This document shows, piece by piece, positions 980 through 45,760 of a stretch of DNA of 45,760 bases (the first letter of the stretch is position 1; every line of letters starts with the position of its first letter). The notes under the pieces were generated by a model. The model saw only the letters and a list, made by a program, of their open reading frames with translations. It searched no databases and had not been told where the DNA came from. The DNA is from Syntrophomonadaceae bacterium (GTDB lineage: Bacteria > Bacillota > Syntrophomonadia > Syntrophomonadales > Syntrophomonadaceae): assembly GCA_018432955.1 (NCBI GenBank), contig JAHDSE010000061.1, positions 1-45,760 of the forward strand, in the 5' to 3' direction. The translations under genes were made by a program, and so were the position numbers.

Positions 980-1738
980 TCATAAATATAAAGCTATCGG
1001 GCAGTGGTCTGAGCCCTGGACATTATCAAGTATCTCACAATCCAGAATATCCCCCAGCATTTCCTGTGATACATAAAAATAATCTATTCTCCAGCCCGCA
1101 TTTCTTTCCCGTGCTCGAGTACGATAACTCCACCATGAATACTGAATCTTATCGGGATAAAAGTGACGAAAAACATCAATATAGCCATAAGAAAGAAATT
1201 TATCCAGCATTTCTCTTTCTACAGGAAGAAAGCCAGAGGTTTTTTCGTTGGCTTTCGGATTTTTCAAGTCTATTTCATTATGAGCAGTATTGAAATCACC
1301 ACATATAATGAGTTTAGGCTGTGTTTTCCGCAATGTCTCACAAAATCTGATTACTTCTCTATAAAACTCAAGCTTATATTTTATTCTTTCCTCTCCCATC
1401 TGTCCATTGGGAAAATAGATATTCAAGAGACTAAAGTTCTCATGCTTGGTAATTATAACCCTGCCTTCAGTATCAAATTCCTCGAGGCCCAGGCCTTTCT
1501 CGCATGACAGAGCTTGCCCTTTTACAAAGGTGGCTACTCCACTATAACCTTTGCGCCGGGCAGGATTCCAGTAACTGCTGTAACCTTCAATACTCTTAAT
1601 GGAATCGTCCAATTGCTCCACACTGGCCTTGATTTCTTGTAAGCAAACAATATCCGCTGCCTCCTCTTTAAACCACTCTGGAAACCCTTTTTTATGTACT
1701 GCCCGGATACCATTTACATTCCAGGAAAATATTTTCAT
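980..1738 (-). CDS. xth: Exodeoxyribonuclease III (AP endonuclease)
   Basis: A 252-residue exonuclease III / AP endonuclease of the EEP (endonuclease-exonuclease-phosphatase) superfamily, which removes abasic sites and 3'-blocked ends in base-excision repair. Family motifs are visible: NVNGIR with the conserved Asn near residue 7, CLQEIK with the metal-binding Glu at 35, GDFN in the middle, the YSWWSYR signature, and SDHCPI with the catalytic Asp-His pair at about 244-245. Length matches the family. The ATG at 1738 is preferred because AAAGGAG lies 11 bases upstream; an in-frame TTG three codons earlier is too close to that site. It is separated from the upstream mrp gene by a repeat-filled spacer with terminator-like hairpins, so it is probably transcribed on its own. 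Confidence 0.95.
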   Translation of the reverse strand: MKIFSWNVNGIRAVHKKGFPEWFKEEAADIVCLQEIKASVEQLDDSIKSIEGYSSYWNPARRKGYSGVATFVKGQALSCEKGLGLEEFDTEGRVIITKHENFSLLNIYFPNGQMGEERIKYKLEFYREVIRFCETLRKTQPKLIICGDFNTAHNEIDLKNPKANEKTSGFLPVEREMLDKFLSYGYIDVFRHFYPDKIQYSWWSYRTRARERNAGWRIDYFYVSQEMLGDILDCEILDNVQGSDHCPIALYL

Positions 1739-3585: not shown

Positions 3586-4182
3586 TTGATTGGCGATGAA
3601 ATACTTGCGGCTCAGACTCTGGAGGGAGATCTATCAGCTTTTGAAGAACTGGTAAACCGTCACAAAAATTCTGTTTTCGCTATTGTATACAAAATGATAG
3701 GCCAATATCAAGAAGCAGAAGATGTCTGCCAGGAAGTTTTTATCACGGTCTATGAAAAGCTCTACCAGTTTGACAGAAATAAAAAATTTGGACCATGGCT
3801 CCATAGAATAGCTGTAAACGCTAGTATAAGCGCTCTACGCAAGAAAAAGAAGGTGATAAGTTTAAATTTTGATGAGGCCTATACCAGGCCTTATGAACCA
3901 TATCCTCAATTATATATGACCGATCCTCAATCAATGTTCGAAAAAAAAGAATTAAAAGCAGAGATTAATGCGGCCATAATGGAGTTGCCGGAAAACTATC
4001 GGGCTGTCATTATACTGCGTTATCAAATGGATTATAAAAACCAGGAAGTCGCCAGCATTCTTGGTGTCAGCAAAGAGAATGTTGAAGTAAGAGTACATCG
4101 TGCTCGTAATGCCCTGAGAAAAATTGTCTTAAAAAAATGGGAAGAAAGGGGGCTAAAAAATGAATTGCCAGCAAATAGATAA
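3586..4182 (+). CDS. ECF-family RNA polymerase sigma factor
   Basis: A group 4 sigma-70 factor of about 198 residues. Region 2 contains the typical AEDVCQEVFITVYEKL helix, and region 4 a helix-turn-helix with VASILGVSKENVEVRVHRAR. TTG at 3586 is chosen because GAGGAG lies 9 bases upstream and the resulting N-terminus (IGDEILAAQTLEGDLSAFEE) matches the usual ECF start; an ATG at 3559 has no visible ribosome binding site. The gene overlaps the anti-sigma gene by 23 bases, so the two are translationally linked. It should respond to an envelope signal relayed by that anti-sigma. Which regulon it serves cannot be read here. Confidence 0.92.
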   Translation: MIGDEILAAQTLEGDLSAFEELVNRHKNSVFAIVYKMIGQYQEAEDVCQEVFITVYEKLYQFDRNKKFGPWLHRIAVNASISALRKKKKVISLNFDEAYTRPYEPYPQLYMTDPQSMFEKKELKAEINAAIMELPENYRAVIILRYQMDYKNQEVASILGVSKENVEVRVHRARNALRKIVLKKWEERGLKNELPANR

Positions 4183-5332
4183 ATATATTTTCGGTTTTTG
4201 CGAACATATTTTGCCCCCTGAATTGGAAAGCAGAATTCAAGAGCACCTTGAAAAATGTCCAATATGCCGTAATAAGGTTGAATTCACCCTTCTCGAAAAC
4301 GAAGTCTTGCAAGATAATACAGATTTGCCTGTTTTGGATGCAAGTTTTACTTCTAATTTGCTGAATCATATCAAGTCCGAGTCAAACACACAACATATTT
4401 CACAAAAAGGTGGGCTTATAAAAAGATTCAGGATACCACAGGCTTTTTATATCCCGGCAATGGCTATAGTGATACTGCTATGTGCCCTATTAATACCTGC
4501 TCTTAGTGATCTACAATCCGATATTAAAATTGCCGATAAAACCAATAACTCGGATACCGGCAAGCCTGGCACTCATTATGACAGTATTCTTGTGGACACT
4601 GAGTCCTCAACAAGAGAAATGCAAAAAGATGCCCTCTTGGATGCCGGCGATAGTCCGCAACAAGGTCAGACTACTTTTGTTGCGGGAACTGAAGAAAACA
4701 ATACAACAACACCAACAGACAAAGAAGCCTCTTCAACAACAGCAAATAAGGTCTTAAAAAGCCCTGTCAATGAAGAAAGCATTGACCATAGGGAAATAAA
4801 TAAACCACCCGAACCCATGTCTGCAAACACTTCAACATACGTATATCCTGTTGAGCTCCCGGCTGATTTTCAGCTCCTGCAAATCATCAGTGGAATTGAT
4901 AATGAACTGAATTATGTTTTTCTGGATACCAGTTCAGAAGAAAAACTGTTAATCAATATTAGCCCATTGCAAACAGAAGCTCTCAGTGTTGCCAGTACAG
5001 ATAAAACTCTGGAAAAAGATGCTTTCAACTACCAGTCAATGGGCGAAGCAGAAGACTCGGCCAATAATCCTGTTTTCACAAGAGACCCTTCCCCTGAAGC
5101 ACAAAGCAGTTCACTTGAGGGACGTGGCCCTGCATTATCTTCGACAGGAAATTACGGCAACACAGAGGACCAAGTCTCCGCCCTGGAGATTTCCGCTAAT
5201 AATTCTATAAACTGGGACATTAATCTGGGGAAACAGTATTACAGAATATCTTTAAGTGCTGACTGTTCCCCGGAAAAACTGGCACAAATAGCCAAAATCA
5301 TAGAATTCAAGGAGGAAAACATACATGAATAA
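4160..5332 (+). CDS. Membrane-bound zinc-finger anti-sigma factor
   Basis: A 390-residue single-pass membrane protein. The N-terminal cytoplasmic part has the zinc-binding anti-sigma pattern C3...H29-x3-C33-x2-C36. A transmembrane helix spans roughly residues 95-116. It is followed by a long Ser/Thr/Glu-rich linker, presumably outside the cell, and a C-terminal domain at about 220-390 resembling DUF4367-type sensory domains (weak). The ATG overlaps the end of the sigma gene and has AAGGGGG upstream. Expected role: hold the sigma factor at the membrane until an envelope stress releases it. The anti-sigma role follows from the motif and the gene pair; the signal is unknown. Confidence 0.85.
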   Translation: MNCQQIDKYIFGFCEHILPPELESRIQEHLEKCPICRNKVEFTLLENEVLQDNTDLPVLDASFTSNLLNHIKSESNTQHISQKGGLIKRFRIPQAFYIPAMAIVILLCALLIPALSDLQSDIKIADKTNNSDTGKPGTHYDSILVDTESSTREMQKDALLDAGDSPQQGQTTFVAGTEENNTTTPTDKEASSTTANKVLKSPVNEESIDHREINKPPEPMSANTSTYVYPVELPADFQLLQIISGIDNELNYVFLDTSSEEKLLINISPLQTEALSVASTDKTLEKDAFNYQSMGEAEDSANNPVFTRDPSPEAQSSSLEGRGPALSSTGNYGNTEDQVSALEISANNSINWDINLGKQYYRISLSADCSPEKLAQIAKIIEFKEENIHE

Positions 5333-43396: not shown

Positions 43397-43400
43397 ACTG

Positions 43401-43434
43401 AAGACTGATATAGCAGCTCTAATTTAGTCTTTTT
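43401..43434 (+). terminator. Terminator of the hypothetical gene before tRNA-Trp
   Basis: AAGACT (43401-43406) pairs with AGTCTT (43426-43431), extended by weak pairs, and followed by TTTTG. Confidence 0.6.
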
Positions 43435-43460
43435 GAGGAATCATAAGCGAGATTATTCTC

Positions 43461-43489
43461 TTGAACCTCTTATACTTTTATGATAAAAT
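43461..43489 (+). promoter_or_regulatory. Promoter of tRNA-Trp
   Basis: TTGAAC (43461-43466), a 17-base spacer and TAAAAT (43484-43489), 26 bases before the tRNA. Confidence 0.75.
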
Positions 43490-43515
43490 AATTCTTGCTG
43501 AAGAAAAGCAAACAA

Positions 43516-43591
43516 AGGGGAGTAGCTCAATTGGCAGAGCATCGGTCTCCAAAACCGAGGGCTGGGGGTTCAATTCCTCTCTCCCCTGCCA
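43516..43591 (+). tRNA. tRNA-Trp (anticodon CCA)
   Basis: A 76-base tRNA with encoded CCA end. Acceptor arms AGGGGAG and CTCCCCT pair, the discriminator base is G as usual for tRNA-Trp, and the anticodon stem CGGT/ACCG holds CTCCAAA with anticodon CCA. Confidence 0.95.
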
Positions 43592-43606
43592 CTAAGAACA
43601 CAGTAA

Positions 43607-43636
43607 AGCCGGAGTTTTTAAGCTCCGGCTTTTTTT
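43607..43636 (+). terminator. Terminator after tRNA-Trp
   Basis: AGCCGGAG (43607-43614) pairs with CTCCGGCT (43623-43630), followed by six T residues. Confidence 0.85.
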
Positions 43637-43767
43637 AAATAGTAGTATGGGGGACACTTGGGGAGCTTTATATTTCCATTTACTTTTTAACTCGATTTTT
43701 AGGGCTGAGGGAGCAGATAATAATAACGCCTGCTTGTTACACTTACACGGAACTATCGATACTCCCT

Positions 43768-44916
43768 TTAAATATTAGGTTGAAGACTTTTGATAGCAGC
43801 TTGAATATTGAATCCTTTGTTATTACTATCTCTACTGCCTCTTATCTGTCTATGTAAACTCATCAAAACATCATTAAAAAAGCTCAGATACGCACGTTGT
43901 TCAGAATCATCAAAAGGGATCTTCTGGGGATTGCCATCTTCAATTTCATATGTTGATACTACGTTTACTTCTAGTACATAATTACGTTGTTTAGAATTCA
44001 ATTCAATCTCAACCTGCTTTGGATTGTCTTTATGTTCAAATAGTATTCGTGCATATGAAAAGTAGAAACCATGATTAAGACATTTAATAACAAAAGGATT
44101 TGTAAGCAAAGAGTTTCCAGATAATAAGGCAGAATTTAATCCATGAAGTTCTTCCTCCTCAACATCTTTGGTATCTTCATTGTCTTGCAATTCCTCATTT
44201 TTCTCTATGGTAACTTTCAAATTTTTGACTTCTATTAATCTCCATTCATCAAAATCATTTCCGAAAAAATTTATAAAAAGTTGTATTTTTTCATTAGTGG
44301 TTAATCCTTCCAAATTAAGTTCACTTGTATTCATTTTAAACCCCGTTGTTTCTGTGAGATTTAAAGTTTTTAATAAGCCCCTAACCTTTTTAATATCGTT
44401 ATCATCACGATGATTAATATCGATATTCAGTTTACCTTCACTATTTTTCCTAATAGTCAAAGGAACTCTGCGCATTTCTTCATCAAGCAATTGTACCATT
44501 CCCGGTTTTTTTCGGGTATACGATATCACCACTTCCGCTTCATTTTCATTAGTTTTTTCTGTAATCGATTCTATATTTACATCTCTTTGTTCATTTGGTA
44601 AAATCTGAGCATATTTCATTGATTCAACAAATAAGGTCATTGAGGCCTCATTCTCTTCCTCTTGTCCGCAGTAGCTGATATCTGACACTTCAATTCGAAC
44701 TGATTTTTTGTAATTACGTTCAGCTTCTAGTAATTCAGAAATTTTGTTTATATCCTCTAATCCCCAAAAGAATAAAGGTACATAATCAGCTATTTGTTCA
44801 CTACTATTTGCATGTAAAATAATACCTCTTTCTTTATAAAATTTACGAACTTCCCGTAATGGTAATTTCAAAAATACTTGCTTTAATGAATTAGGTTCAG
44901 GGTATTTTTCAATCAT
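43768..44916 (-). CDS. Unassigned protein, 382 aa, partner of the nuclease-like gene
   Basis: A soluble acidic protein, not recognised. The N-terminus (SLKQVFLKLPLREVRKFYKE) is helical, the middle is rich in Glu, Asp and Asn with beta character (MVQLLDEEMRRVPLTIRKNS, NIDINHRDDNDIKKVRGLLK), and the C-terminus basic. No membrane segment or catalytic motif was identified. ATG has GGAGAG upstream and starts 17 bases after the stop of the nuclease-like gene, so the two form an operon. It is visibly more AT-rich than the AOR operon. Its coupling to a nuclease-like gene beside a tRNA suggests a defence or mobile-element role, unproven. Confidence 0.7.
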   Translation of the reverse strand: MIEKYPEPNSLKQVFLKLPLREVRKFYKERGIILHANSSEQIADYVPLFFWGLEDINKISELLEAERNYKKSVRIEVSDISYCGQEEENEASMTLFVESMKYAQILPNEQRDVNIESITEKTNENEAEVVISYTRKKPGMVQLLDEEMRRVPLTIRKNSEGKLNIDINHRDDNDIKKVRGLLKTLNLTETTGFKMNTSELNLEGLTTNEKIQLFINFFGNDFDEWRLIEVKNLKVTIEKNEELQDNEDTKDVEEEELHGLNSALLSGNSLLTNPFVIKCLNHGFYFSYARILFEHKDNPKQVEIELNSKQRNYVLEVNVVSTYEIEDGNPQKIPFDDSEQRAYLSFFNDVLMSLHRQIRGSRDSNNKGFNIQAAIKSLQPNI

Positions 44917-44933
44917 TTTTATACACTCTCCAG

Positions 44934-45760
44934 TTATACATTTAATAATAAGGGGGGAATTCCTGCATAAAAATCCATATACTTAACATCAACTTCAAGA
45001 CTCCTTTTTTGGCTTGCTAACTCTGCTTCTAATTGTCTTTTAAAATCTGCTACTGCATTTCTTACTTTCAATGGTTCTTCATATATGTAAAAGATAAAAT
45101 CATCAGCAGCTTCTAATTGATACTTTTTAAATGCTTCATACATAAATATAAGACTTTGTTGAGTGACCTTATCAAAAACAAAAACTATTGATTTCTTCTT
45201 ATATTTTTGGTCTCTATCAGTTTTTTCAGATCCTTCTGCTTGAACAAAAATATATTTCGAAAACATTTGAATCAATGAAAGTTGCCTATTAATCATTAAA
45301 TGTTTTCCATCCATACTTGGATAATAGAAATTCCATTTAAACCCTTGTTTTTCTAAATCTTGTAAAACCGATATTAACGAGCATAATCTTAAGATGTCAT
45401 AATTTGAAAGGATAAATGTCCGATAAGCAAGTCTCTTCTCTCTAATAATTAGTTTTGATAAGTACTCTTTAAATTTATTATGATCATAGTTATTATCATT
45501 ACACCATATGCATAACAATCCAGTGTTATATGGCACAAGTTCAAAATGCTTTAATTCTGGTGCTTGTGGGGCACATTCTAGTGAACTTAATATTTGATTA
45601 TTTAGCCAATTTTCTATTTCAGATTTATTAATGCCATTCCATGCCCTTGATTTCGATTCAACTATTACAGGTATTTCTCTATTTAAATATGGTTCATAAT
45701 AGGAAAACAAGCAGTCTATTCCGTGTCCTTGTCCCTTGCGTTCTTTCTTATGCCTTGTAC
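44934..45760 (-). CDS. PD-(D/E)XK nuclease-like protein, N-terminus cut by window edge
   Basis: The frame is open from the window edge to a stop at 44934, giving about 275 residues; a TTG at 45710 is only an internal codon. Near the visible start, GHGIDCLFSYY and then VIVESKSRAWNG give Asp...Glu-x-Lys, the core of PD-(D/E)XK nucleases (restriction enzymes, repair and anti-phage nucleases). The rest is helical and lysine-rich, with KKSIVFVFDKVTQQSL in the C-terminal part. It precedes the unassigned 382-aa gene by 17 bases. AT-rich compared with the rest of the window. A two-gene anti-phage system is possible, but no named system is claimed. Confidence 0.7.
   Translation of the reverse strand, partial: TRHKKERKGQGHGIDCLFSYYEPYLNREIPVIVESKSRAWNGINKSEIENWLNNQILSSLECAPQAPELKHFELVPYNTGLLCIWCNDNNYDHNKFKEYLSKLIIREKRLAYRTFILSNYDILRLCSLISVLQDLEKQGFKWNFYYPSMDGKHLMINRQLSLIQMFSKYIFVQAEGSEKTDRDQKYKKKSIVFVFDKVTQQSLIFMYEAFKKYQLEAADDFIFYIYEEPLKVRNAVADFKRQLEAELASQKRSLEVDVKYMDFYAGIPPLLLNV

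Follow-up and report, generated by a model that had tools for sequence, protein, structure and literature searches.

What is encoded in the AT-rich DNA that begins directly behind a tRNA-Trp gene at the end of a Syntrophomonadaceae contig, and could it be an anti-phage nuclease module? The window analysed here, a stretch of 45,760 nucleotides, is the whole of contig C50 from a genome which is 67% complete and split into 162 contigs.

The tRNA-Trp locus and its probable continuation on a second contig

The tRNA-Trp gene is intact, and the GC content falls from 41.6% over positions 1-43515 to 31.1% over positions 43636-45760, with all other 2125-bp stretches of the window being at 36% or above. 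The AT-rich segment carries 2 co-directional minus-strand ORFs of 382 and 274 codons, 17 nt apart, the second of which is cut at its 5' end by the window edge, that is, by the end of the contig. Thus, the compositional shift to the right of tRNA-Trp and the operonic pair with one gene truncated at the edge were both recovered as originally predicted. An 89-bp repeat, the accessory distribution (1 of 54 genomes of the family) and the composition all speak for the proposed integration at the 3' end of the tRNA. The genes are called here Hp2 (complete) and Hp1 (truncated), after the homologues described below.

Because the window corresponds to an entire contig, the continuation past position 45760, which the original prediction had proposed to obtain, was sought on the other contigs of the genome. 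A search for further copies with window positions 43400-45760 returned a single extra match, an 89-bp segment of contig C33 identical at all positions (Table 1), which covers the 3' half of tRNA-Trp, from within the anticodon loop, and the terminator. ARAGORN detected no tRNA in the C33 stretches, so that the second repeat is a partial copy, of the sort that an inserted element is expected to have at its distal attachment site. The earlier remark that the tRNA end has no visible exact repeat holds inside the window but not for the genome.

The end of C33 opens with the start of another minus-strand ORF, encoding the peptide MPEENNIIGERWTKETVALLSYLGWEQHGDSN, which supplies the N-terminal 32 aa of Hp1 (C33:2-97, minus) and aligns to positions 1-31 of an Hp1 profile, with the window ORF aligning from position 38 on. 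For the reading frames at the 2 contig ends to match, the length of the gap must be divisible by 3, and approximately 12 nt suits the homologues. We infer that C50 and C33 are adjacent and in frame with approximately 12 nt between them, a join drawn from the contig ends rather than from reads. Just 2 nt separate the Hp1 start from the stop of a complete 229-aa Hp3 homologue (C33:100-789, minus), and the resulting order is repeat, Hp2, Hp1, Hp3 (all minus), approximately 1 kb, and repeat. Together, the Hp1 N-terminus, the frame fit and the repeat on C33 define a cassette of approximately 4 kb, and, at the sequence level, the window pair is two-thirds of a three-gene cassette cut by the contig end.

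The approximately 1 kb between Hp3 and the second repeat is largely non-coding, its sole ORF being a 47-aa DUF1508 (YegP-like) one at C33 approximately 1310-1453 (minus). Upstream of the Hp3 gene, a 17-nt inverted repeat (94%; C33:858-895) overlaps promoter-like -35/-10 sites and is a possible operator. No integrase or integrase remnant was found inside the cassette. This absence and the mostly non-coding 1 kb would also suit an integrative element or prophage that was once larger and has decayed, leaving the 3 genes behind as cargo that is unexpressed or non-functional; however, neither Hp3 nor Hp2 is truncated, the Hp1 frame is open on either side of the gap, the putative catalytic residues are retained and the 2 repeats share 100% identity, and we regard decay as distinctly unlikely compared with a compact cassette.

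Table 1. Features of the tRNA-Trp locus in window coordinates.
Feature	Position	Strand	Basis
tRNA-Trp (CCA), integration target	43516..43591	+	ARAGORN
att-like repeat, exact 89/89 copy at G000:C33:1790-1878 (L003)	43547..43635	+	genome search
Terminator hairpin and T-run 3' of tRNA-Trp, within the repeat	43605..43635	+	sequence; scan lists the hairpin in the C33 copy
In-window part of the inserted cassette, 31% GC, continuing on C33:1-1789	43636..45760		sequence
Hp2 homologue, 382 aa, complete, ~27-29% identical to G421 Hp2	43768..44916	-	homology
Hp1 homologue, PD-(D/E)XK-type core; 274 aa, lacking ~36 residues at the N-terminus	44934..45758	-	homology, alignment
Putative catalytic Lys (VESK)	45651..45653	-	K in 16/16 outside GapS4a
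Putative catalytic Glu (VESK); the lineage with the order Hp1-Hp2-Hp3 has Asp here	45657..45659	-	alignment
Putative catalytic Asp (HGID)	45714..45716	-	D in 17/17 aligned homologues

Relatives of the three proteins

Pfam and NCBIfam yielded nothing useful for the window proteins, a PDB sequence search gave no matches, and pattern-based scans of genome and viral contigs with window Hp1 alone found no relatives; with the Hp1 alignment as the query, relatives were recovered in genome contigs and none in viral contigs. When plasmids were searched with tblastn, Natronorubrum proved to carry the two genes next to each other, and Hp1 was also detected in Halobacterium and Aliarcobacter; all 3 records have an adjoining third gene of approximately 230 aa that is a homologue of the C33 ORF. 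A Klebsiella P2-like prophage and an unannotated faecal contig came from phage records. By PADLOC, the 3 Klebsiella proteins are Hp1, Hp2 and Hp3 (E-values from 1e-158 to 1e-248). We identify them with Rst_3HP, a three-gene system from the P2 hotspot of E. coli that is reported to protect against phage P1 and was described as having "no clear predicted domain" (Rousset et al. 2022; PMC9122126).

Window Hp1 matches PHROG 7059 (E=3e-16), to which the Klebsiella prophage Hp1 belongs, and C33 Hp3 matches PHROG 5850 (E=1e-10), the family of the Klebsiella Hp3. Profiles likewise match window Hp1 and Hp2 and C33 Hp3, 3 homologues adjacent on one strand with approximately 12 nt between the contigs unseen; the profile alignments already included these 3 sequences, and the PHROG matches are independent of them. 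The 3 families occur together at every 3HP-type locus inspected, namely, in Klebsiella/E. coli P2-like prophages, Campylobacterota, Vibrio, Pseudomonas, Enterobacter, haloarchaea, a genome of the same phylum as the window (G421) and the faecal element. Homology between Hp2 and Hp3 was considered and ruled out by profile comparison. Given that the PADLOC Hp1/Hp2/Hp3 models match neither window Hp1 nor Hp2 at E<=1, nor C33 Hp3 at E<=0.001, we assign the locus to a second lineage related to Rst_3HP rather than to the curated models; by homology and gene content, the cassette is a divergent, so far unlisted second lineage of the Rst_3HP kind.

A further relationship leads to GAPS4, which originates from Gamma-Mobile-Trio elements. 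The NCBIfam model GapS4a matches the haloarchaeal and G421 Hp1 proteins (1e-12 to 5e-16), and GapS4b matches the Hp2 proteins of G421 (1e-10) and Klebsiella (7e-6), with these relatives scoring 25-59 bits against curated cut-offs of 270-300. By these matches, Hp1 and Hp2 are distant kin of the two-gene GAPS4. The one GAPS4 locus inspected, on a Pantoea plasmid (L105) where GapS4a and GapS4b score above the cut-off, consists of 2 genes with no Hp3 within 4 kb. In its GapS4a (4001-4927), a single sequence, SAK is aligned at the (E/D)xK of the 3HP nucleases, which would mean either that the acid has moved or that the active site is of another kind. The window pair might accordingly be read as a two-gene GAPS4 member, in which Hp1 and Hp2 need no further partner and the C33 gene is cargo unrelated to them, a possibility that draws on the GapS4a/GapS4b matches of relatives of both proteins and on the two-gene Pantoea locus. 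Yet the window proteins themselves miss both models, BLASTP gives no meaningful match between window Hp1 and GapS4a, every relative sampled from the lineage has an Hp3-like third gene alongside, and the Hp3 and Hp1 genes nearly abut; this reading thus appears very improbable. Instead, the locus is probably a compact, approximately 4-kb, integrase-less defence cassette at the tRNA-Trp 3' end, with the operon Hp3-Hp1-Hp2 belonging to a divergent Rst_3HP lineage distantly akin to GAPS4.

The putative nuclease and its partners

The D...ExK core noticed in the edge gene could be located and is conserved: the Asp is present in 17/17 Hp1 homologues, and an acid (E or D) and Lys in 16/16 of those other than GapS4a, so that the D, E/D and K are kept in all aligned 3HP-type Hp1 proteins across 2 domains of life. 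Loss of these residues, which would have spoken against a nuclease, was thus not seen. One E. coli Hp1 is independently named "PD-(D/E)XK nuclease domain-containing" by PGAP. Of the structure predictions proposed for both proteins, that of Hp1 gave a pLDDT of 77 and a pTM of 0.76 (AlphaFold2), the Hp2 model being poor (pTM 0.44). In the Hp1 model, the Asp precedes strand 16-22, ExK lies within strand 27-38, and helix 45-65 and strand 79-86 follow, an order that suits the alpha-beta-beta-beta-alpha-beta core of PD-(D/E)XK enzymes, with the first helix falling off the window and the structure searches being weak. Foldseek did not bear out this fold: against the PDB it retrieved no nuclease, the matches being unrelated (TM approximately 0.25), and against viral models it gave weak matches only, including several RPB5 proteins and one DUF2726 protein. 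RPB5 and DUF2726 proteins have a restriction-endonuclease-like fold. Hp1 is likely to be a PD-(D/E)XK nuclease, an assignment resting chiefly on the residues. The original idea of a two-gene anti-phage nuclease module is supported as to its kind, through the homology to Rst_3HP and GAPS4, but not as to the number of genes, which is 3.

For Hp2, Foldseek against the PDB returned low TM-scores, and in neither the Hp2 nor the Hp3 of this genome was a known antitoxin or DNA-binding fold detected. The Natronorubrum Hp2 carries a C-terminal helix-hairpin-helix (HhH) DNA-binding domain.

To the right of the second repeat, C33:1912-17365 (L003) encodes an HTH-ImmA/IrrE and a HigB-like protein (HigBA-like), followed by a DUF499 ATPase (HmaC), a DUF3800 protein, a DUF1156 methylase (HmaB), an SNF2 helicase (HmaA) and a SoFic-like Fic protein, forming a defence island with an apparently complete Hma system (HmaABC). 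The HigBA-like and Fic genes, the placement of the nuclease in a tightly coupled operon and the promoter-overlapping palindrome, which could be an autoregulatory site, would fit a toxin-antitoxin-like suicide module, in which triggered Hp1 degrades host DNA and Hp2 or Hp3 is the inhibitor. However, the neighbouring toxin-antitoxin genes lie outside the repeat and neither partner has a recognizable antitoxin fold, and we consider such a module unlikely.

Under the defence-cassette reading that we prefer, Hp1 would be a metal-dependent PD-(D/E)XK nuclease effector steered by Hp2 and Hp3; Hp2 may bind DNA, a partner or the trigger, as hinted at by the HhH domain of its Natronorubrum counterpart, and Hp3 could be a co-translated, obligate third subunit that sets the specificity or restrains the nuclease. 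Upon infection, the complex would cut the invading DNA or, as an abortive response, the host DNA; direct attack on the invading DNA is our first choice, albeit not on decisive evidence. Both the catalysis and the defence ascribed to the window copy are putative, anti-phage activity having been reported for the E. coli P2-hotspot system only. The conserved active site in divergent copies and the DNA-binding domain in one haloarchaeal Hp2 make the 3HP mechanism testable.

Distribution, mobility and comparison with known systems

Hp1 was found in 1/54 genomes of the family, 1/63 of the class and 2/398 of the sampled genomes of the phylum. A core housekeeping pair, which the original prediction had named as a finding that would contradict it, is ruled out by the family and class counts, and the genes are accessory. 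Close kin of the Klebsiella operon are present in 18/5426 complete E. coli genomes and at 24 viral-contig loci. In the Hp1 tree, a branch with 99/97 support splits off 10 members with the order Hp1-Hp2-Hp3, from enterobacterial prophages, Vibrio, Pseudomonas, Enterobacter plasmids and Campylobacterota; the order Hp3-Hp1-Hp2 is shared by the window, G421, 3 haloarchaea and the faecal element (L018/L067). The second active-site acid tracks this split, being D in the ten and E in the six. As the branches of the tree are long, it is uncertain exactly where in its group the window belongs. The faecal mobile element has several tyrosine recombinases, with the Hp3-Hp1-Hp2 operon directly upstream, and the Campylobacterota copies (L013) adjoin a BsuBI/PstI-type restriction endonuclease and methylase.

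Elements have integrated repeatedly at the 3' end of tRNA-Trp in Syntrophomonadaceae: partial 3' copies of the gene, with matches starting at about the same base, were found in 4 further genomes, G034 (L057), G047 (L058), G012 (L059) and G023 (L066). In G034 and G047, a tyrosine integrase adjoins tRNA-Trp, with phage-like cargo of approximately 11 kb and 13 kb, respectively. These elements use the same tRNA gene as the window cassette, with the same repeat start in the anticodon loop, but have an adjacent tyrosine integrase and phage-like genes, of which the cassette has neither. With no integrase in the cassette and homologues elsewhere in the genome (the 2 best near tRNA-Ala and tRNA-Leu), its transfer probably occurred in trans, through a tyrosine recombinase of the kind found in the tRNA-Trp elements of the family. 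A candidate empty site is seen in genome G019, where the TorD-like gene and tRNA-Trp are present and the cassette is missing, but this genome is too distant for a base-level comparison.

Like Rst_3HP, the cassette comprises 3 adjacent co-directional genes of the same 3 families and of similar lengths, in an accessory and mobile setting, with D...(E/D)xK kept in Hp1. It differs from Rst_3HP in gene order (Hp3-Hp1-Hp2 versus Hp1-Hp2-Hp3), in the motif (ExK versus DxK), in sequence (approximately 20-25% identity, with scores below the PADLOC models) and in location (a tRNA-Trp cassette versus the P2 cos-proximal hotspot). With GAPS4 (GapS4a and GapS4b, NF047933/NF047934), it shares a nuclease-like protein followed by an Hp2-like protein in the same order; by contrast, the inspected GAPS4 locus lacks Hp3, which every member of the Hp3-Hp1-Hp2 lineage has, and this lineage scores far under the curated cut-offs. 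The divergent copies extend 3HP to Archaea and to lineages missed by the PADLOC models, and tie it to GAPS4. It is conceivable, if still somewhat doubtful, that 3HP and GAPS4 form one cross-domain nuclease defence superfamily, in which the Hp3-Hp1-Hp2/ExK type would be a distinct subtype across Archaea and Bacteria, represented here by a minimal integrase-less cassette mobilised in trans via tRNA-Trp.
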